A DNA stretch of 64,000 bases from Allolobophora icterica (lineage: Eukaryota > Annelida > Clitellata > Crassiclitellata > Lumbricidae): NCBI GenBank assembly GCA_963556255.1, contig OY744611.1:36128485-36192484 (forward strand), written 5' to 3'. Position 1 is the stretch's first letter. Each line of letters begins with the position of its first letter. A program made the translations under genes and the position numbers. A model generated the notes under the pieces. That model was not told the origin of the DNA. It saw nothing but the letters and a program-made list of their open reading frames with translations, and did no database searches. Shown here one piece after another: positions 9,911 to 59,493 of the stretch.

Positions 9911-10057
9911 ATATTCATTCTCAGCAAGTAAGCGTTTTAAGAATGCTTCTTTCAGTACTCCTTGATGTATGCATGTCCGTTATAAGATGTTCAATATAAG
10001 AATGGCATCAAATTATGGAACTATACTTTTGCACCAAACAGTTTCCTTTCACTATAT

Positions 10058-10546
10058 ATGTTTCTTGACCGCATCTTGCGCTCTGCTGCACGCCTTATTG
10101 GCCAAATACCATATTTTGGCCATGTATCAGATTATATGCTGGAGGTCCTGCATTGGCTCCCTGTACGGCAGCGCATTGAGTACAGGATCGCCTCGTTTGG
10201 TTGGCGATGTCAACTGGGTCTCGCACCAAAATACCTGATGGATCTCTTCCGGCCTGTGTCTGCTTCTCGGACTGCTCGAGTCCTCCGTTCGGTGGGGAGG
10301 GGAATGCTATCCGTCCCGTTTGCCCGTACTGCTATCATGCAGACCCGCGCCTTCTCGGTGGTTGGCCCGACCATATGGAATGGCCTTCCCCCTGAGCTGC
10401 GCCTACATCCTAGGTCTTCCTCTGGTACCTTCTATGATCACCTGAAAACTGCTCTTTTTCGCCGTGCTGGAGTCGGGAGCGCCTCTGAGTAGTTCCCTTG
10501 AAGTGGCGCTATATAAATATACGAATGAATGAATGAATGAATGAAT
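10058..10546 (+). mobile_element. LINE ORF2 C-terminus and 3' end with (GAAT)n tail
   Basis: 144 open codons show the C-terminal signature LHWLPVRQRIEYRI, GLAPKYLMDLFRP, AFSVVGPTIWNGLPPELR, ending GVGSASE and a TAG at 10490-10492. The 3' UTR is very short (GGCGCTATATAAATATACGAA), then (GAAT)n at 10523-10546. It is 5'-truncated and inserted in the 5' flank of exon copy A. Its last codons and 3' UTR match the tail of the SINE at 38053 and 29450. Confidence 0.88.
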
Positions 10547-13689: not shown

Positions 13690-14330
13690 TACTTTGGACC
13701 TTGAAGATGTTCGTCGCTGTACAGTTCGTCAAAGATTCTGTACGTCTCTTTCTAACAGCAATGTTACAGCATTAAACTTCGGTGTAATCTTCGACATAGT
13801 TGAGATTGCTGTAGCTCTAGTAGTGACAGTAATCTCACACTCCAATCTCACATAACAAGCCTTTGCAAATCTTGTTTCTATCATATCAGGGCAATTCGTC
13901 ACATAAGATCTGCTCTTACCAGAGACATGTCCCAGACTATAGCCTGTTCTCTTGTCTGCTCTCGCCTCGATTATGCCAACTCTGTGTTTGCAGGCATTTC
14001 AGACCTTCAAGTCAACAGGCTTCAACGCATCCAAAATTCTCTGGCTCGCGTGGTGTTGCGTGCATCTTCCCGTTCAAACTCATTAACTCTGCTCCATCAG
14101 CTGCATTGGCTTCCTGTAAATTTCAGAATGAGATTTAAACTGGCCTGCTTGACATTTAAAACCCTCACAATGTGCACTCCTACCTACCTTCAACCACTAC
14201 TCTCTCCTTACATTCCGCCACGCAGTCTACGGTCTTCGGTTATGGGTCTTGTGGTTGAGCCTAGATGCAGCACTGCCATGGGCTCTCGTGCATTTCGAGT
14301 TGTGACTTTGCGCGCGTTAAAAATGTTTGT
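13690..14330 (+). pseudogene. LINE RT thumb/C-terminal fragment
   Basis: After NFGVIFD (one frame), another frame reads SLCKSCFYHIRAIRHIRSAL, CSRLDYANSVFAG, LQRIQNSLARVVL, LHWLPVNFRMRFKL, and ends GSRAFRVV. This is the classic L2/CR1-type order. It is frameshifted, lacks the RT active site, and ends near an (ATA)n run. Confidence 0.85.
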
Positions 14331-14689
14331 AATAATAATAATAATAATGGTTTCTCATGAATTACGCATGTAAGTCAGTTCACCAAATGCCGCGGAGAAG
14401 TCTGGTAGCTGCAGATAGGTCTATATTTGGACTGATTGAAGTGCACCAGATAATTGTCGGTAATATAACAATCGTTCCCAAATGATAATAAACACTATGA
14501 ACTCAAATTTTTTAGTTAACAAGGTTGGGGGCCCTTGCGACCTCGGAGCCCTTAGATTTTGTCCACCCTCGTTATATGGTTGTTACGCCACTGGCTACCA
14601 GGCTCAGGTCTTGCAACTCTTGGTCGTCCGACAACGTTGCTATCTCCGCTGGGAACTCTACTCCCGACGCGTTGGCGAGCGGGAGAGGG

Positions 14690-15431: not shown

Positions 15432-16980
15432 CAATCTGAAAAGGTAAGTCTCAAGTAGAGAACGAAACGGCTCAGGTAACTGAAAAGAAGGGACAACCAC
15501 AGGATGGGAATTCCAAAATCTTTGTCTATACAAACCGAAAAATCTCGTTCCCTAGAACAGTTCAAGTCTATGCATGACCACAGAAAGATAATCAACCGAC
15601 CTGGTTCAAATATGATAAGCCTGGCTAATAAGTACTGATTTTAAATACTGTCGATGACCAGCATTCATTGTTTCATAAGCTACGGCCCCGATTTGAAAGA
15701 CGAGTCTCCATTCTGCAGAATCCGATTTACAAGGCAGCACTTAGCCACTCAGCAATTAGCGCAATGTAAGAATATCGCAATCTTATCTTGAGCCTCGAGA
15801 AAACATCTGTAAAGCATTGCAGCTTATTCTGAGGGCGGATTAATTAAGATAATGACAGCTCGAATCCAAAGAGATCATCAGTTAGAGATCGTTAAGTAAA
15901 GTAACACACAAGTTAAGCAACACATCTAGTGGACATTGCAGAAGGTACATCAGGAGATTCGTATCAGATAGAGTTTGGGTAACAAGAACCATTAACTAAA
16001 ATAAATAATATTTGCACTGAGTATGAACAGTTTCAAACAAAGACTGGACACTTGGATTTAAGCGACATATTATATGTAGTCCTCCTAAAACTCTCAGCTT
16101 TCCAAGCCAATTACTTGTAGTTGTGGCTTTAAACTGTTTCAAATATTCAACTTCGATTCACTATAGGCCTATTATTATATAGGCAAAAATTCACATCTAA
16201 CTCAATTCTGTCTGAGGTTTCGTACAAGTTCGTTAACATCATTTGCAAGGTGCATCACTATGACAAGATAGTGTGCTCAAATAGGTGACTTAAAATTAAA
16301 AACACATTATGCTCTGATCGAACTACACAGCAATTCTCATTCTTCGAAGTTGGCTAATAGCTTCAAAAATGTTGTACCACTTTCGTAGCAGTTAAAGTTC
16401 ATCTGATATGGTTCACTTTACGGAACAGTCTTTGCCCTATGAAGAGAGAAACTGTCACTCCTATGAAGAGAGAATTTTCAAGGTCCAGTATAAAGATTGG
16501 TTGGTAATCGTGAAAGTGCAGCAATCCTGCTGCTACTATATTATACGATAATTATTCTCAGCAAAGTCAACGCGAATTGACTTTGTGTCATTTCTAAAAA
16601 TGAGGTTGAAAAAACCATAATGCACTCCATTGCTTTTGCAGACACAGCTTCTGCAGATAAATCTTCGCACAAAGAAAGAAGCAGGGTACCAGAAGATTTT
16701 CGTCACGCGACGTTGAAAACCCAGTCTAGAATCTTAGCGGTCTCAGCGGTAACAGATTCCGGAGAAAGTTCTTCCAAACAGATGGCAACATGGTATGTTA
16801 TGCTATTCACGGCCTATGACGAGGCCTACTTACACATTTAATAGTACATTCTCTGCTAAATGCAGTTACATAATATTTTAGTACGGGAATTTGACCAAAT
16901 GCATAGAAAAATTAGAAGAGCTGAAGCCGTATAGGTCGACATAGAAAGACCTGTACATTTATAGACCTACATTTGTGTTA
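15432..16980. repeat. Block P2 of the array
   Basis: Same landmarks as P1 but without its insertions, so it serves as an empty-site reference. Leads into the flank of exon copy B. No intact gene; the minus-strand frame at 15407-15595 is not conserved. Contains the RING relic at 16500-16730. Confidence 0.7.
16500..16730 (+). pseudogene. Decayed RING-exon relic(s) in block P2
   Basis: Contains TTGACTTTGTGTCATTTC, GAGGTTGAAAAAACC, TTTTGCAGACACAGCTTCTGC and a CTTCGCACA-like end, matching the order of the LC-x2-C, LKNP, FCGH and FCKECFEH codons of exon 1. A second partial repeat (GTTGAAAACCCAGTCTAGA) follows about 100 bases later, so the relic itself looks internally duplicated. Several stops and frameshifts. 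Confidence 0.55.
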
Positions 16981-24195: not shown

Positions 24196-24589
24196 ATTGT
24201 TAGCAGTTATATACAGCCTATGTACTTGCACATTTGAATGCAAACTGCTTCGAATATTCACATTAGAGTCACTATCACAGTTCAAGCCAAAGTTCACAAC
24301 TATCCTCGTTTCTGCGAGGTCTCGTTCAAGTTTCTTAGCCTTTCTGCGGGAAGCAGAGTCACAGTCATAGGATACTGCAGCAGATGACGCAAAACATACG
24401 AAAATATTTTCCTAAAGCCAAGCATTTTCAAGAAGTTCTGCGCTGGAGATATAGTCCACACGACTATGTTTCGTTCTTCGAATTATAACAGCTTTAATAT
24501 GTTGTATGGCCTACTACTTCTTGGAACAGTTACAAGGCTACCGTTACTTGACGTGATGGACTTTACTAAACTTTAATTAGGATCAATAG

Positions 24590-24870
24590 ATGATTGAAAG
24601 GCCAAGATCAAGAATGAGGAAGAACCGTGAAAGTGCCGAAGCCCTTTTGCAAATGGATTATATAAACGAGACCTTGAGCAAAGTCCACTCAAACCCAGTT
24701 GATAGCTTTCTGAGCATAGGCTCAAAGGTTCGGCAGGTTAAATGCTTCGCACACAGAAAGAAGTAGGCTGCTAGATGATTTTCGTCATTGAAAAATACAG
24801 TCTAAAGCTTTTGTGGGAAAAGGTTCTGCAGAGAATGCTTCGAAAGCAAAATCTCGTTATTTTATGCTAT
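24590..24870 (+). pseudogene. Decayed RING-exon relics in block Qc
   Basis: Contains the Q-type relic and then a second relic: CTAAAGCTTTTGTGGGAAAA, GGTTCTGCAGAGAATGCTTC and GAAAGCAAAATCTCGTTAT parallel AGCTTTTGTGGCC, ATTCTGCAAAGAATG and ACACAAAATGAGGTAT of exon 1. The Cys codons of the KEC segment are still recognisable out of frame. Confidence 0.55.
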
Positions 24871-25129
24871 CCGCAGCCAATGCCTATATGCATAATTATG
24901 CCTCATCATATAGGCCCTATATGTGTGAATTTATGCTGTAGGCCTATATGGAGTTTTGTAATATTTGAGGCCAGGAAACCTTATCCACTCGGGAGTCTTT
25001 GACGATGGCTCAGGCATACCGAACATTCTAGATGGCATGCAATCTAACTGCTTTAGAAATTGGAATAATAGTGTAACTCTGTAATTTTTATGAAGCAACA
25101 ATTCAGCATCAGCGATAGAAATTCCTCAA

Positions 25130-29331: not shown

Positions 29332-30010
29332 AGTTTCAATAAAAATAGTCCGGGATGAAAACAGGATCCATGTCTGTTGGCTTTTACAATACCGTGGCTT
29401 TTCCATGAAGTGCAAGTATATTAATTTTCTGTTTTCAATTTGGCTTACATTTATTTATTCATTTATTTATTTATTCCGGATATTTCTATAGCGCCTCTCG
29501 AAGTCAACTACTACTCAGAGGCGCTCCCGACTACAGCATTTTATACTGTGCCGGAATTTTCACGCCGAAGCGCCACGAGCAATTGCGAGTGAAGGACTTG
29601 CCCAAGGTCCGTACGCAGCGGCTAGAGTGGGATTCGAACCTGCAACCCTCCGGTCACAAGGCGCCGAACTTACCACTGAGCCACCACGCCATATTTTAGA
29701 TCAGCAAAGGACAAGGTGTCAGAATCATCTGAGCATGACTTTGACTTGAATACGTCTGAGCTTTTAAAGTGTTGAAGTGTAGTGCATACAACTACCAATC
29801 ACGTGGTAGTAAAGTTTCAATAAAAATAGTCCGGGATAACAGGATCCATGTCTGTTGGCTTTTACAATACCGTGGCTTTTCCATGAAGTGTAAGTATATT
29901 AATTTTCTGTTTTCAATTTGGCTAACATATTTTAGATCAGCAAAGGACAAGGTGTCAGAATCATCTGAGCATGACTTTGACTTGAATACGTCTGAGCTTT
30001 TAAAGTGTTG
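29332..30010. repeat. Local tandem duplication inside copy 1
   Basis: AGTTTCAATAAAAATAGTCC... through GAAGTGTAGTGC occurs at 29332-29790 (with a SINE in it) and again from 29813. The second segmental copy (41400-41600) has the unit once. The two units are nearly identical, so the event is recent. Confidence 0.85.
29450..29695 (-). mobile_element. tRNA-derived SINE (same family as 38053-38381)
   Basis: Minus orientation: TGGCGTGGTGGCTCAGTGGT (A box region), then GGTTCGAATCC (B box), TGCGTACGGACCTTGGGCAA, and the LINE-like tail AGTCGGGAGCGCCTCTGAGT (reverse complement at 29513-29532), ending in an (ATAA)n tail at about 29450. The tandem twin at 29930 lacks it. Confidence 0.88.
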
Positions 30011-32125: not shown

Positions 32126-33535
32126 GTGTCGACCCCACAAGACCACACTTTAGGCAGGAGTAGCAGAGAACGAAGCGACACAAGTACGTAACTGAACGGA
32201 ACGAACAACCTTATGATGGGCATTTCAAAATCTTTGTTCAGCAAACGAAAAAGCTCCTTCAGTTTAGAACAGTTCCACTCTGAGTATGACCAGAGAAAGA
32301 TAATCAACCGACCTGGGTTCAATTATGATCAGCCTGAGTAACAGGGGCTGAGTTTAAATACAGTGGATAACCAGTATTCATTGTTTTATAAACTACGGGC
32401 CCCAATTTGAAAAATGAGTCTCCATTCTGCAGAATCGGATTCACAGGGCAGTGCTTAGCCAATCAGCAATTAGCACAATGTAGGTCTCAGAATATCGCAA
32501 ACTCATTTTGGGCCACGAGAAAACATCTGCAAAGTATTGCAGCTTATTCTTAAGGCGGATTAATGCAGAATATGACAGTCCGAACCCAAAGAGATCATCA
32601 GTTAGATATCGTTCAGAGAAGTAACAAACAAGTTAAGCAACACAGCAAGTGAACATTACCGAGGATAGCCTACAGTCTGAAACTTTCCCACAAGATAGTG
32701 TGATTGGACAACCAAGAGATTCGTTTCAGACAGGAGTTTGGGTAACACGAACCATCAACGAAAAGAAATAATATATGCACCGAGTATGAACAGTTTCAAA
32801 CAAAGACTGAAGAGTTGCATTTAACGATATCGCATAGGTCTACTAAAGCTCCTAGCCTGCAGGCCAATAAATTGTAGTTGTGACTTTAAACTGCTTCAAA
32901 TATTCATTTTCGATTCGCCGTCATATTATCGCCCAAAATTCACATCCAACCCCATTCTGTCTGAGGTTTTGTGCAAGTTCGTTAACTTCATTTTCAAGCT
33001 GAATCACTATGACAGAATAAGCTTAGTGTCACTCAAATAGGTGACTTAAATTAACAGCACGTAGCCTATGCTCTGATTGAACTACACAGCTATTCTCATC
33101 CTTCGAAGTAAACTGGCTTCAGAATGTTGTTCCTCTGACATGGTTCACTATACAAAACTGTCGTTACCTACGAAGGGAGAAACTGCCATTGGCTATTAAG
33201 AGAGAATTATAATTTCCAAAGACCAGAATGAAGATTGGTGACTAATCGAGAAAGTGCAGCAACCCTTCTGCTACTAGATTATACGATCAAGATCCTGAGC
33301 AAAGCCAACTGGCTTTGTGTCATTGCTAAAACGTGTTTGAAAATCATATAATGCAGTCCATTGCCTTTGTGCACGAACTTGTAACTTCTGCAGATAATGC
33401 TTCGCACACAGAAAGAAGCAGGGTACTAGACTAGATGATGTTTTTCACCCTACGTTGAAAACTCAGTCTACAGCTTTTACAGGATGACGTTCCGGCGAGA
33501 ATGCTTCGAACATAAAATCAGGCGTTTATGCTATT
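32126..33535. repeat. Block P3 of the array
   Basis: Same landmark order as P1, P2 and P4. Free of the insertions seen in P1. RING relics at its right end (33225-33535). Confidence 0.72.
33225..33535 (+). pseudogene. Decayed RING-exon relics in block P3
   Basis: GGCTTTGTGTCATTGC and AATGCTTCGCACACAGAAAG form the first relic. The second reads RRECFEHKIRRLCYS at 33493-33537, close to KECFEHKMRY of the intact exon. The two relics in tandem show an old internal duplication before the P blocks were copied. Confidence 0.6.
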
Positions 33536-34255: not shown

Positions 34256-34784
34256 GAGACACAAACAAATCTAAATTTATGACGTCACATTAATGATCGT
34301 GAGACCAGGGCAGTTTCAAACAAATGCTGAACACTTGTATAAGATACAGACAATAAACGCTCTTGGCATAGGTTGTTAGCAGGTATATATGGCCTATGTA
34401 CTTGCATATGTGAATGCAACCTGCTTTGAATATTCACATTCGAGTCACTATCACAGTTCAAGCCAAAGTTCATAACTACCCTCGTTTCTGCGAGGTCTCG
34501 TTCAACTTCAAGTTTCTTAACCTTTCTGCGGAAAGCAGTCACTGTCATAGGATACTGCAATAGATGATGCTAAATATACGAAACATTTTATGCTAAAGCC
34601 AAGCATTTTAAAGAAATGCTGCGTTGGAGATATAGTCCACGCGAATGTGTTTCGTTCATCGAATTATAACAGCCTTAATATGTTGTATGGTCTACTATTC
34701 CTTGGAATAGTTACAAGGCTACCGTTATTTGGCGTGACTGACTTTACGAAACTTCAATTAGGATCAATAGAATGATACAAAGGC

Positions 34785-35060
34785 CAGAATCAAGAATGGT
34801 GAATGGCCGTGAAAGTACAGCAGCCCTTTTGCAAATGGATTATACAAACGAGATCTTGAGCAAAGTCCACTCAAACCCAGTTGATAGCTTGCTGAACACA
34901 GGCTCAGAGGTTTTGCAGGTAAAATGCTTCGTACAGAGAAAGAAGTAGGCTACTAGAGGATTTCGTCAATTGACATTGAAAAGTAGTCTAGAGCTTTTGT
35001 GGGAAAAGGTTCTGCAGAGAATGCTTCGAAGGCAAAATCTCGTTATTTCATGCTATCCGC
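34785..35060 (+). pseudogene. Decayed RING-exon relics in block Qd
   Basis: A paralogue of the 24590-24870 relic pair, with the same order: CAGCCCTTTTGCAAATGG, GAGATCTTGAGCAAAG, GCTTTTGTGGGAAAAGG, TTCTGCAGAGAATGCTTCGA. It lies in the second copy of the Q-R segment and has no open frame. Confidence 0.55.
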
Positions 35061-35228
35061 AGGCAATGCCTATGCCTACTTATCATATAGGCATTATGAG
35101 AGCTTATTCTGTAGTAGGCCTACATGGAGTTTTGTATTACTTGAGGCCGGGAAACTTGATCCACTCGGGAGTCTTGACGATCGGCTCAGTGCTACAATTG
35201 TAGTATGTCTTACATTCTAGATGGCATG

Positions 35229-35935: not shown

Positions 35936-36930
35936 AGCAACTTCTATTATGCCTAAGCCTATATACGAAGCCTAATGCACAAGTATCAACCGATGGCGCA
36001 CTAAAACCAGAGTCATAATCCAGAAGATTAGTCCATTAAGACTGCAAGGCAGTACTACAGTGGATATGCAGTCTGAAAAGGTATACCCTAAGCAGAGACG
36101 AAACGACACAAGTAACTGAACGGAACGAGCAACCTTATGATGGGCATTTCAAAATCTTTGTTCAGCAAACGAAAAAGCTCCTTCAGTTTAGAACAGTTCC
36201 ACTCTGAGTATGACCAGAGAAAGATAATCAACCGACCAGGTTCACTTATGATCAACCTGAGTAACAGAGGCTGATTTTAAATATTGTGGATAGCCAGTAT
36301 TCATTGTTTTATAAACTACAGGCCCCAATTTGAAAGACGAGTCTCCATTCTGCAGAATCCGATTTACAAGGCAGCACATAGCCAATCAGCGATTAGCGCA
36401 ATGTGAGAATAGGCCCTAGGCCCTATCTCAAACTCATCTAAAGCCACGAGGAACATCTGCAGAGCATTGCAGCTTATTCTGAAGGCGAATTAATCATGAA
36501 AATGACAGCCCGAATCCAAAGAGATCATTAGTTAGACATCGTTAGGTAAAGTAACACACAGGTTAATCAACACATCAAGTGGACATTACGGAGGATAGGC
36601 CTACAGTCTTAAACTTTCCCACCAGATAGTGTAATTGGACATCAGGAGATTCGTTTCAGACAGAGGATTAACAAAGGAGTAACAGAGGAGTTTGGATAAC
36701 ACGAACCATTAACCAAAACAAGTAATATCTGCACCGAGCATGAATAGTTTCAAACAAAGACTGAACAGTTGGAGTTAACTATACAGGTAGGCCTACTAAA
36801 GCTCCTAGCTTAGAAAGACAATAATAATTGTAGTTGTGATTTCAAACTGCTTTAATTATACATTTTCGATTCGCCGTCATAATTATTATCGGCCAAAATT
36901 CACATCTAACCCCATTCTCTCTGAGGTTTT
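35936..36930. repeat. Block P4 of the array (truncated)
   Basis: Same order as other P blocks up to CATTTTCGATTCGCCGTCAT and TCTGAGGTTTTGTGCA at 36930, then a switch to unrelated sequence before the RING-relic part. Marks the right edge of the array. Confidence 0.7.
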
Positions 36931-37626
36931 GTGCAGATAGCGGACGATATAGAGAGAAGACCTTCGCTATCAGAGTGCCGTTGAGACGACTTAGAGTACA
37001 CGAGTTCCAGGTAAAAGATAGATTAAATCAGACCAAGAGTAGGCCTAAGCGATACGTGAAAGTTCGGATAGTCGGGTACCCAGGCTGGGAAACGACACGT
37101 CCGTGTTTTCCTAGCCGAAGTCCAGCTAGTGAGAATCCCTAGGTGAGGAGTACGATAGTACCAGGTACGAAGGGGAAATAATAAAGCAGACCAAGAGAGC
37201 GATACGTGAAAGTCCGGATAGTCGGATACCCAGGTATAATCATATTTGCTTGTCGTAACACACACCTCTGAGAACTGATTGAAGTGCGAGGTTATGCTCC
37301 CTCGTGCGTAAGTCGGAACGAAGTGCTGTGTGCAGTGCTCGAAATGGACCGGAACGCACCGGAACGCCGTTCCGGTTCGTCAAATGCATCCGTATTATCG
37401 TTCCCTTTCGTCCAGTGAAAATACTATGAAATTAACGTTTTTATTGTCCTCTGAAATGTGAATGCTCCCATATCTTTGACTAGCGTTCCGTTTCGTAAAA
37501 TTTTCCATTTCGAGCACTGGCTGTGTGTAAACAGGAAGGTTATAGAGAGAGGACCTTCACTATCAGAGTGCCATAGAGACCCTCACCGTTATCTTTCGAA
37601 GCAAAATTCATCACCGTGAGGCAGTC
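36931..37626. repeat. Direct repeats around a MITE
   Basis: An approximately 40-bp unit (TATAGAGAGAAGACCTTCGC...ATCAGAGTGCC) occurs at 36948 and 37541. Another (AAGCGATACGTGAAAG, then GGATAGTCGG) occurs at 37050 and 37199. No gene recognised. Confidence 0.6.
37333..37519. mobile_element. hAT-type MITE (187 bp)
   Basis: Ends CAGTGCTCGAAATGGACCGG and, inward, CAGTGCTCGAAATGGAAAAT. GCTGTGTG is duplicated exactly at 37325-37332 and 37520-37527. Confidence 0.95.
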
Positions 37627-37639
37627 TTGTTGTCCTCGA

Positions 37640-37815
37640 GACCAAGGTCTTGGTCTCGAGTGCGGTCGAGTTCGTTTTTAAAAGTCTTGGTCTTGGTCTT
37701 GGTCTTGAGGTTCAAGGTCTTGGTCTTGGTCTTGAGGTTCAAGGTCTTGGTCTTGGTCTTGGTCTTGAGGTTCAAAGTCTTGGTCTTGGTTTTTCAAGAC
37801 CAAGACCAAGACCGA
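37640..37815. repeat. GGTCTTG minisatellite, first array
   Basis: Runs of GGTCTT separated by GAGGTTCAA form units of about 25-35 bases. The right end contains an inverted piece (CAAGACCAAGACCAAGACC). Frames encoding VLVL or QDQD repeats are translations of this array. Confidence 0.93.
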
Positions 37816-38052
37816 CTGAATTTTAAATTTTTCCGCAGCCATTGCGGTCAATAACGATTTTAAAAAAGGCTCACGATTAATACATTTAAATCCAGTGCTT
37901 GAAAAGCTACTGTGTGTGCCAGCGACTTCAGGCTTCAGCACCTATGAAAAGAATTTTTTTACATGACGAAATTTTTATGAGGCCCCACAAGGCACGTCTT
38001 GGTCAGAAAATTCTGAGCGAATTGGTTTTAATAAAATGCAACAGGCATTTGT

Positions 38053-38381
<329 letters not shown>

Positions 38382-38535
38382 TTGGAATAACATTTTGCAT
38401 GAAGGACTTAATTTGTGAATTCGAATTCAGAAATTCTCTGCAGTCTGCATTTAGAGTTGGTTTGCTTCATTAAAGTAGCGAGTAGTCCGACTTGACAATT
38501 TTTAGTAAGGAATAGTGTGGATATGATTGTGATTT

Positions 38536-38795
38536 TTGGGCCTTGGTCTTGGTCTTGGCCTTGGTCTTGAGGTTCAGGGTCTTGGTCTTGGTCTTGGTCT
38601 TGGTCTTGAGGTTCAAGGTCTTGGCCTTGGTCTTGAGGTTCAGGGTCTTGGTCTTGGTCTTGGTCTTGGTCTTGAGGTTCAAGGTCTTGGTCTTGGTCTT
38701 GGTCTTGAGGTTCAAGGTCCTGGTCTTGGTCTTGGTCTTGAGGTTCAAGGTCTTGGTCTTGGTCTTGGTCTTGAGGTTTAAGGTCTTGATAACAA
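38536..38795. repeat. GGTCTTG minisatellite, second array
   Basis: Same unit and same orientation as the 37640-37815 array, about 720 bases away, with a SINE in the interval. About eight GAGGTTCA spacers. Either one array split by insertion or two arrays from a duplication. Confidence 0.93.
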
Positions 38796-56085: not shown

Positions 56086-56089
56086 TATG

Positions 56090-58613
56090 GGGTCATTCCG
56101 TGTGAAATCAACCAATTTTTTAACATTTTCCCACCTTCAACTTTAGATTTGGCTGAAAATTTTTCCATCTGTTTGGACACCATTTTGAGGCACAAATGCC
56201 AACTTTTATTAAAATATTCACAAATTTGACCGAGATATACCATCTTAAAGCGAGGTGGGGTAGGCGAAAATTCGTATCCGATTTCGCGAAATGTTCTCTG
56301 AGGCCATATTCAATATGAAATAACTCAAGAAGTAGAGCAGATAGAGGCATGAGGTTTTCACTGCTATATTCAGAAAGTTGTTGGTAACTCACTGAGCCTA
56401 TTATAATGACTGTGTCTTGAGCAGACACTTTACACGACAGCTGCCAATATGCCATCTCAGAAATCGCAAACTGTGTTTTCTTGAATTTGCCAGACCAATA
56501 TGAGGAAAAGCAGCAGCAGCAACATTTTAATCTGTTCATATTTTGAAATTGCAAGTAATTGGCTCCTACTGGATGTATTTTACTGTGGTGTATATTTGCA
56601 AATGAATTCATACTGACATGCTAAACTTGGTCGAACTGATGAACGGGGGTCAACTTCACCAGCAGATATTGGGAAATTGGACAACTGGAATTTATCTGAA
56701 TTTCATATTTCTGAAAAGTGCATGCCATAAGCTTTCTGGTGATATAAATATTGTGTTGGTGCTCAGAAGCAATCAGGAGTAATGCTCTGTTGAATATTAG
56801 CATTTTTCGATGTCGCAGAAGGGTCAGTCCATGTGAAATCAAAGAGTGACCTATCTCAGATTTGGCTGTAATTTTGCTAGTTTGTAGTTTGATATGTTTG
56901 TACATTATATTGAAATTTTCAGAAGCCTATCACCATGTATCTGCATTGTATGGCTGATGGTAATGTAGGGGGTTTGAAGCACTCGCGACACGTTTTTGAA
57001 CTTCGTGACATGTTCAGAGGCCAGTATCTCAGGAAAAGATCCACATAGGCCTGCAATATTTGATGATTTTGTACAACTTTTTGTGTACTTTCTGATTCTG
57101 TAAATCGTTGTGAATTGAAACAAATAGTTTCCCACTAATATTGGTGTAAAAGTGACCAAAAACGCAGTTTCCAGTTTTAATCTGTTGTAGCAGTGAAGAC
57201 AACAAAAGCTATTGCAAATATTTTACACTTCTGTTATCTGCATATAGTTCACGAGTCTGTATGTAACAAATCTTAACCTTATTACTCTATGTCTTCATGG
57301 TGACAGGAGTCTTGAAATTTGGTCTGTGAGGTAAACTGCTGCATCTTCGGCTGCAAGTATGCACAGGTGGGACAACAGATAGTTGTCTGAATGCTTTTAG
57401 CTTAGTGTTGTAGATGTCATAGAGTAATAAAGTTAAGATTTGTTACATACAGAGTGAACTATATGCAGATAACAGAAGTGTAAAATTTTTGCAATAGCTT
57501 TTGTTGTCTTCACTGCCATTAATATTACAGATTTAAACTGGAAACTGCGTTTTTGGTCACTTTTACACCAATATTAGTGGGAACCTATTTGTTTCAATTC
57601 ACAATGATTTACAGAATCAGAAAGTACACAAAAAGTTGTACAAAATCACCAAATATTGCAGGCCTATGTGGATCTTTTCCTGAGATACTGGCCTCTGAAC
57701 ATGTCACGAAGTTCAAAAACGTGTCGCGAGTGCTTCAAACCCCCTACATTACCATCAGCCATACAATGCAGATACATGGTGATAGGCTTCTGAAAATTTC
57801 AATATAATGTACAAACATATCAAACTACAAACTAGCAAAATTACAGCCAAATCTGAGATAGGTCACTCTTTGATTTCACATGGACTGACCCTTCTGCGAC
57901 ATCGAAAAATGCTAATATTCAACAGAGCATTACTCCTGATTGCTTCTGAGCACCAACACAATATTTATATCACCAGCAAGCTTATGGCATGCACTTTTCA
58001 GAAATATGAAATTCAGATAAATTCCAGTTGTCCAATTTCCCAATATCTGCTGGTGAAGTTGACCCCCGTTCATCAGTTCGACCAAGTTTAGCATGTCAGT
58101 ATGAATTCATTTGCAAATATACACCACAGTAAAGTACATCCATTAGGAGCCAATTACTTGCTATTTCAAAATATGAACATATTAAAATGTTGCTGCTGCT
58201 GCTTTTCCTCATATTGGTCTGGCAAATTCAAGAAAACACAGTTTGCGATTTCTGAGATGGCATATTGGCAGCTGTCATATAAAGTGTCTGCTCAAGACAC
58301 AGTCATTATAATAGGCTCATTGGGTTACCAACAACCTTCTGAATACAGCAGTGAAAACCTCATGCCTCTATCTGCTCTACTTCTTGAGTTATTTCATATT
58401 GAATATGGCCTCAGAGAACATTTCGCGAAATCGGATACGAATTTTCGCCTACCCCACCTCACTTTAAGATGGTATATCTCGGTCAAATTTTGAAATATCC
58501 TAATAAAATTTTGAATTTGTGCCTCAAAATAGTGGCCAAACAGATATAAAAATTTAGAGCCAAATCTAAGGTTGAAGGTGTGAGGGTCTGGTTGATCTCA
58601 CATGGAATGACCC
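56090..58613. mobile_element. 2.5 kb foldback (palindromic) element
   Basis: The left arm 56090-57291 and right arm 57418-58613 are near-identical inverted copies, with a 126-base spacer. The flanking TATG on both sides (56086-56089, 58614-58617) may be a target duplication. Each arm begins GGGTCATTCC and carries a second inner copy of the GGGTCANTCC-TGTGAAATCAA phrase (56821 and its mirror at 57871-57892). Mirrored open frames of 84, 94 and 163/130 codons occur in both arms and differ by very few residues. No known protein motif, and the superfamily is unknown. Confidence 0.88.
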
Positions 58614-58617
58614 TATG

Positions 58618-58680: not shown

Positions 58681-59493
58681 ATGATATATATGGTGCCATA
58701 GGAGAGCACGATATAGTCTGTGAGCATATTGTGAGCCACACTAGTCTTTGCTATAATAATGTATCTCCTCTTCTCGTTCCTCTGTTATTTTCTCACTGAT
58801 TGTTTTATTAGTTAAGTTTAAATCTGTTAATGATATTGTGTTTAGTGATTACGTATATAGTTTTGATATTTAAGAATCTTGGAGATTGATTTCTTGCAAA
58901 GCCAACAATAATTCTACTTGCTTCGTCACGTTCTGACTCTGATGAGACCACCGGGGAGGGGTCCTACTTAGCGGAATATTATCCCTTCTGTATACCTCCC
59001 AGTTGTATCCCATCCGACTGATACATCTACCGAATTAAGGTAAACTCGACCATTATTGGCTGGTTGGAGATTGTTTTCACCTCCTGTATTAAATAACATA
59101 TGATGAGATACAATGAAGAGCTATGTTATGTTATAGTCTCTGGATGCTTAATAGTCAAGTGATCTCTTATTATAAAGCCGACATGTTCGAAGCATGTTTG
59201 GTTTATAAAAACGGAACCAAAGCGTCTTAGGTACACTCCAGAAACTGTAGTGTCTGCACGAGCAAAGACTAGTGTGGCTCACAGTATGCTCACAGACATT
59301 AACTGTCTGGTATCAAATCAAGTTCAGTGTTGTCTACCGCCAGCCAGCTTTGCCTGACCACTAAAAAAGGCTGCAGTATTTTATGTCTGGGTGAAAGCCA
59401 CAGCTGCTGTTTATTGCCAGACAATTGATGTCTGCACATCACGCTAATAGTATCTTCATCTTCCAGACATTATTTTTAAAAAGTACTTGTGTA
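58681..59493. other. Intergenic with an inverted pair
   Basis: CTGTGAGCATATTGTGAGCC and CACACTAGTCTTTGCT at 58718-58753 recur inverted at 59263-59298 (AGCAAAGACTAGTGTGGCTC, ACAGTATGCTCACAG). The 580-base segment is thus bounded by inverted repeats of about 35 bases. No gene. Confidence 0.6.

Follow-up and report, generated by a model that had tools for sequence, protein, structure and literature searches.

A palindrome of about 2.5 kb with internally repetitive arms in Allolobophora icterica, probably a non-autonomous foldback-type DNA transposon

We analysed 64,000 nucleotides (nt) of DNA from the annelid Allolobophora icterica (GenBank assembly GCA_963556255.1, contig OY744611.1, positions 36,128,485 to 36,192,484 of the forward strand), a stretch referred to here as the window, in whose own positions all coordinates are given. 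The subject of this study is a large palindrome at 56090-58613, which a first-pass annotation made from the letters alone had described as a foldback element. The inverted repeat was confirmed at the coordinates proposed for it. It consists of a left arm (56090-57296, plus strand) and a right arm (57413-58613, minus strand), which form terminal inverted repeats around a spacer, or loop, without strand; this spacer measures 116 nt (57297-57412) and not the 126 bases first claimed. In a scan for inverted pairs with arms no more than 5 kb apart, 115 pairs were obtained, and no inverted repeat detected in the window was longer than the palindrome, whose main arm pair measures 1,057 nt at 97%. Among the best 25 pairs, that is, the longest, the only others besides the palindrome and its own inner part were ATT/AAT microsatellite pairs. 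The palindrome is not due to chance. A BLASTN comparison of the element with the window (E <= 1e-3) returned only the element itself and its own mirror image, and self-BLAST of the window at any distance gave, among rows of 100 nt or more, one further inverted pair of 221 nt (29471-29690 and 38055-38275; 94.6% identity, 8.4 kb apart).

A global alignment of the two arms has 1,214 columns, including 40 mismatches and 20 gap columns, so that 1,194 columns are ungapped. The description of the arms as almost identical over about 1.2 kb has to be qualified for their outer 160 columns, which contain 19 of the 40 mismatches; in 10,000 permutations this number averaged 5.3 and never exceeded 15. The remaining 21 mismatches are spread over 1,034 columns (outer versus inner, p = 1e-7), and the longest mismatch-free run of the inner arm covers 328 columns, a length attained in 0.55% of permutations. 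Approaching the spacer, the similarity of the arms weakens through small indels. Long near-identical palindromes are a known type of artefact, and a fold-back read or a chimera in the assembly or sequencing could in principle produce such a structure; however, the 40 mismatches and 20 gap columns, which cluster towards the outer end and around the spacer, together with the private residues carried by both arms, make this explanation highly improbable.

Each arm carries successive open frames. The 84- and 94-codon frames (57553-57807 and 57807-58091, plus their mirror) overlap by TAATG in both arms, as had been noted, and a third frame has 163 codons in the left arm and 130 in its right-arm counterpart. 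In the right arm this longest frame is thus shortened, and its outer block contains further stops. Over the 84, 94 and 130 codons compared between the arms there are 2 synonymous changes (198.7 sites) and 13 nonsynonymous changes (725.3 sites); the nonsynonymous share, 13/15, compares with 78.5% expected without selection (p = 0.75). The frames show no purifying selection and no sign of being genes. None of the three element frames scanned matched a Pfam family above its cut-off, and the search for relatives of the 94-codon frame gave one candidate and no matches. A weak RING-like match of the 166-residue frame (residues 21-72, including its cysteine run; E = 0.0069) reached 17.2 bits, below the cut-off of 26.6, and was taken as chance. 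We reject a coding role on the grounds of the inter-arm substitutions, the lack of a Pfam family above cut-off in these three frames and the lack of relatives of the 94-codon frame; a meaning for the mirrored frames is not supported.

These results bear on the view that functional genes lie mirrored in the two arms, or that the locus is retained as a source of small RNAs from a long hairpin. Open frames are indeed present in both arms, resembling an open frame in relatives described below, but a protein search retrieves just those copies that are open, and open relatives are therefore no evidence of coding. Likewise, the central 331 nt of the palindrome have a very stable predicted RNA fold (z = -21.75), as is expected of any palindrome. 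With the substitution pattern, the shorter right-arm frame with stops beyond it and the frames' lack of Pfam families all speaking against it, we regard this view as the least probable of those considered.

At the outer ends of the element the terminal 22 nt read GGGTCATTCC(G/A)TGTGA(A/G)ATCAA. The motif of the left arm, GGGTCATTCCGTGTGAAATCAA (56090-56111, plus strand), agrees with that of the right arm (58592-58613, minus strand) at 20 of 22 bases. The same 22-nt motif recurs further inward as GGGTCAGTCC..., 731 bp into the left arm and 722 bp into the right arm, where it lies at 57870-57891 on the minus strand; the window contains four sites of this pattern, all within the element, and no fifth. 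The repetition of the motif phrase inside each arm, noted at first reading, is thus borne out, since the exact 10-mer GGGTCANTCC occurs four times in the window, two per arm. When one mismatch is permitted, 7 occurrences are found against 7.15 expected by chance, so the relaxed 10-mer is not enriched. TATG lies directly outside both element ends, read directly at 56086-56089 on the left and present again at 58614-58617 on the right, and we propose it as a target site duplication.

It is possible to read each arm as a unit that begins with GGGTCATTCC, as would be expected had two separate single-armed elements been inserted head to head. Against such an origin, the spacer boundaries show, by eye, neither an inner end motif nor a duplication, and the similarity of the arms fades there via small indels. 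The arms also have in common residues that are absent from relatives. Two independent insertions are consequently very unlikely.

The earlier proposal that the arm itself is composite is supported. When the outer 731 bp of the left arm are aligned with the 592 bp that come next (56821-57412, a stretch that takes in the spacer), the score is 72, while 300 dinucleotide shuffles gave a mean of 33.6 and a maximum of 51; with the first 24 nt of each sequence removed, the score is 64.5 against a shuffle maximum of 50. As the arm halves align above all 300 shuffles, the arm goes back to an old tandem duplication whose two units have since diverged; in the left arm the inner half (56821-57296, plus strand), starting with GGGTCAGTCCATGTGAAATCAA, is the diverged counterpart of the outer half. 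Within the outer half we distinguish three blocks. The outermost, block T (56090-56262, plus strand), is the one that differs most from its counterpart in the opposite arm, and its inner boundary is approximate and was set by us; block A (56263-56611, minus strand) is the part present in relatives, recognised through the 163-codon frame, for which there is no evidence of coding; and block B (56612-56804, minus strand) follows.

Diverged relatives of the outer arm were found in 10 proteins of other public records, with best local identities of 63-77%. They were retrieved by the 163-codon frame, 10 from 1,730 candidates in a larger search and 7 from 27 in a smaller one, the 7 being among the 10. 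Protein-level matches show how the blocks follow one another in several of them. In P0001 and P0003 block A continues into the outer block T, in the same order as in the window. P0005 aligns with block A (56611-56264 on the minus strand) over its residues 1-116 and with block B (56804-56601, likewise minus; 78% over 68 residues, E = 2e-30) over residues 112-179. Because P0005 passes from A straight into B, and B lies inward of A in the window, this is a head-to-tail junction, with an implied unit of about 0.53 kb. The A-to-B junction of P0007 is weak, amounting to 12 residues of which 9 are identical (E = 0.11). In the viral and prokaryote collections three scans gave pattern matches in 4, 23 and 58 stretches, among them zero confirmed relatives, and DNA-pattern scans of viral and prokaryote contigs gave no match.

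The relatives also help to place the end of the element. The match of P0003 to the left arm stops at base 56090, as precisely as a local protein alignment can tell (to about one residue), while its frame extends 22 further residues that remain unaligned. Since the match of a relative ends at this very base, it supports a genuine element end, independently of TATG. This evidence has to be set against the possibility that template switching, in the course of repair or replication, produced an inverted duplicate of part of a dispersed or satellite-like repeat, in which case the structure would not be mobile and TATG would be a chance match. The head-to-tail blocks of at least one relative, the single palindromic copy seen in the window and the mere 4 bp of TATG are all compatible with such an event. 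However, the same 22-nt motif stands on both outer ends, and a relative whose flank is different ceases to match at that end too; one would not expect a random duplication to stop, on either side, where the repeat itself ends, which weighs against this origin. We consider it unlikely, though it is the strongest of the competing explanations.

Taking into consideration the anatomy of the palindrome, the terminal motif flanked by TATG and the match of a relative that ends at the same place, we conclude that the element is probably a non-autonomous foldback-type DNA transposon of about 2.5 kb, in agreement with the first-pass annotation. Two traits of the foldback class are found in it: long inverted arms with a short or absent central part, and internally repetitive arms, the latter seen in the tandem duplication of the arm and in the A-to-B junction of a relative. 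The type of element is an ordinary and already known one, whereas the sequence family may be new.

Several points weigh against this conclusion. No transposase was found. TATG is short, at 4 bp, and was chosen after being seen: 4-mers drawn at random from the window in pairs are the same in 0.46% of cases, a figure to be read in the light of a match spotted post hoc. The foldback families used for comparison have longer duplications than TATG (7 bp in Galileo, 8-10 bp in Tetris). Finally, mobility is something that we infer, because the window holds a single copy and no second insertion site is seen in it. The analysis does not establish the recent origin or active mobility suggested at first reading.

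The uneven divergence of the arms suggests copying between them. In block A (116 residues) there are 9 residues that both arms have and the relatives lack, and 8 at which the arms differ; in block T (45 residues) the corresponding numbers are 1 and 11 (Fisher p = 0.019, for common-to-both versus differing residues); the comparison was made with 9 of the 10 relatives, at the protein level, with stops counted as states and a block boundary set by us. Private states are present in each arm, in both blocks. The simplest reading of these sequence patterns is that, once the element had separated from these relatives, copying between the arms took place in their inner parts and not in the outer block. 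Against it stand the small number of sites, the boundary of our own choosing and the treatment of stops in a protein-level comparison. Alternatively, the outer block may simply be changing faster, or it may have been exchanged with a different copy. Gene conversion, which had been offered as one cause of the near-identity of the arms, is thus suggested by their uneven divergence, but the evidence falls short of proof. If the inner arm is homogenised and the outer block is not, arm-to-arm conversion would be measurable inside one element.

Under the foldback interpretation, a transposase encoded by another element would recognise the GGGTCA(T/G)TCC boxes, both terminal and within the arms, and cut-and-paste by that enzyme would leave the 4-bp TATG duplication. 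Pairing of the arms would then let one be copied onto the other; such copying would maintain the similarity of the inner ~1 kb, with the outer ~160 bp escaping it, and a transcript of the element would form a long hairpin. A more specific proposal, which we put forward tentatively and hold to be possible but doubtful, is that the element represents an undescribed foldback family with 4-bp duplications, arm blocks that also occur as head-to-tail arrays in other records, inner arms homogenised by conversion and an apparent distribution outside Drosophila. Among the literature matches listed for the GGGTCATTCC string there was, by title, no transposon paper; the undescribed status of the family may stand, being uncontradicted by a comparison that covered literature and not the repeat libraries Repbase and Dfam.

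The window surrounding the element has a GC content of 34-47% per 2-kb bin and is rich in microsatellites; in our judgement its character is that of animal DNA. Beside the palindrome, at 58716-59297, lies a unit resembling a miniature inverted-repeat transposable element, with 37-nt inverted ends (GTCTGTGAGC...) that are 97% complementary and 508 nt apart; by eye, it has no clear flanking duplication. Many diverged direct repeats occur between about 2300 and 44000, most rows listed by self-BLAST being about 68-86% alike (for example 24197-25013 with 34373-35189, 15454-16728 with 32162-33470, and 32162-32975 with 36091-36935), and this region resembles a local array, of segmental or gene-family type, that arose long ago. 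Tandem arrays with 27-33-nt units of GGTCTT repeats occupy 37682-38788, where one frame is open for 169 codons (QDQDLEP...). The frames at 9986-10492 and 13804-14373 (WNGLPPEL...), which gave no Pfam match, look like the ends of reverse transcriptase genes of long interspersed nuclear element (LINE) retrotransposons. Of the 20 window frames scanned, 3 in the palindrome and 17 elsewhere, none matched Pfam above cut-off. A transfer RNA scan of the window with bacterial settings and an Rfam scan at gathering scores gave 0 matches each.

With regard to known systems, the Mutator-like foldback element Tm1 of root-knot nematodes is, by title, reportedly of foldback form. Mutator elements make long duplications (8-11 bp), whereas the flanks of the present element, if its ends are correctly placed, agree over 4 bases only, the two being compared by description. 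Duplications of 4 bp are made by Chapaev and other animal DNA transposons, whose termini are CAC; our element is alike in its proposed duplication, appears to differ in the termini, and contains no transposase.

Closer in anatomy is Galileo, a member of the P superfamily in Drosophila, with which the element shares a foldback-like organisation and internally repetitive terminal inverted repeats. Galileo was first classed as foldback-like partly for its missing coding capacity, makes 7-bp duplications with the consensus GTAGTAC (PMC2775673), and has long arms whose tandem repeats contain extra transposase binding sites (PMC3688188). Its duplication differs from the 4 bases over which the flanks agree here, provided that the ends are correctly placed. 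No THAP-domain or Galileo transposase was found in the three element frames scanned, and a non-autonomous copy would lack one anyway. Tetris of Drosophila virilis is an apparently non-autonomous foldback element with duplications of 8-10 bp and with arms of up to 1,735 bp, in which a flanking domain lies outside tandem repeats of ~220 bp; these repeats also occur as satellite-like arrays (PMC4079207). Head-to-tail blocks are found here too, in at least one relative; compared by description, however, the units of ~0.53-0.73 kb and the 4-bp match differ from the ~220 bp and 8-10 bp of Tetris/DAIBAM. Because the duplication, if TATG is one, and the repeat lengths differ, we keep the element apart from both Galileo and Tetris. 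Foldback elements can cause inversions, a natural one having arisen through ectopic recombination between Galileo copies (PMC2775673), and can seed satellite repeats, as in Tetris (PMC4079207). An undescribed family of the kind proposed above would, if true, be a further case of foldback arms seeding tandem repeats, and its relatives with head-to-tail blocks offer a way to ask whether foldback arms yield tandem arrays elsewhere.
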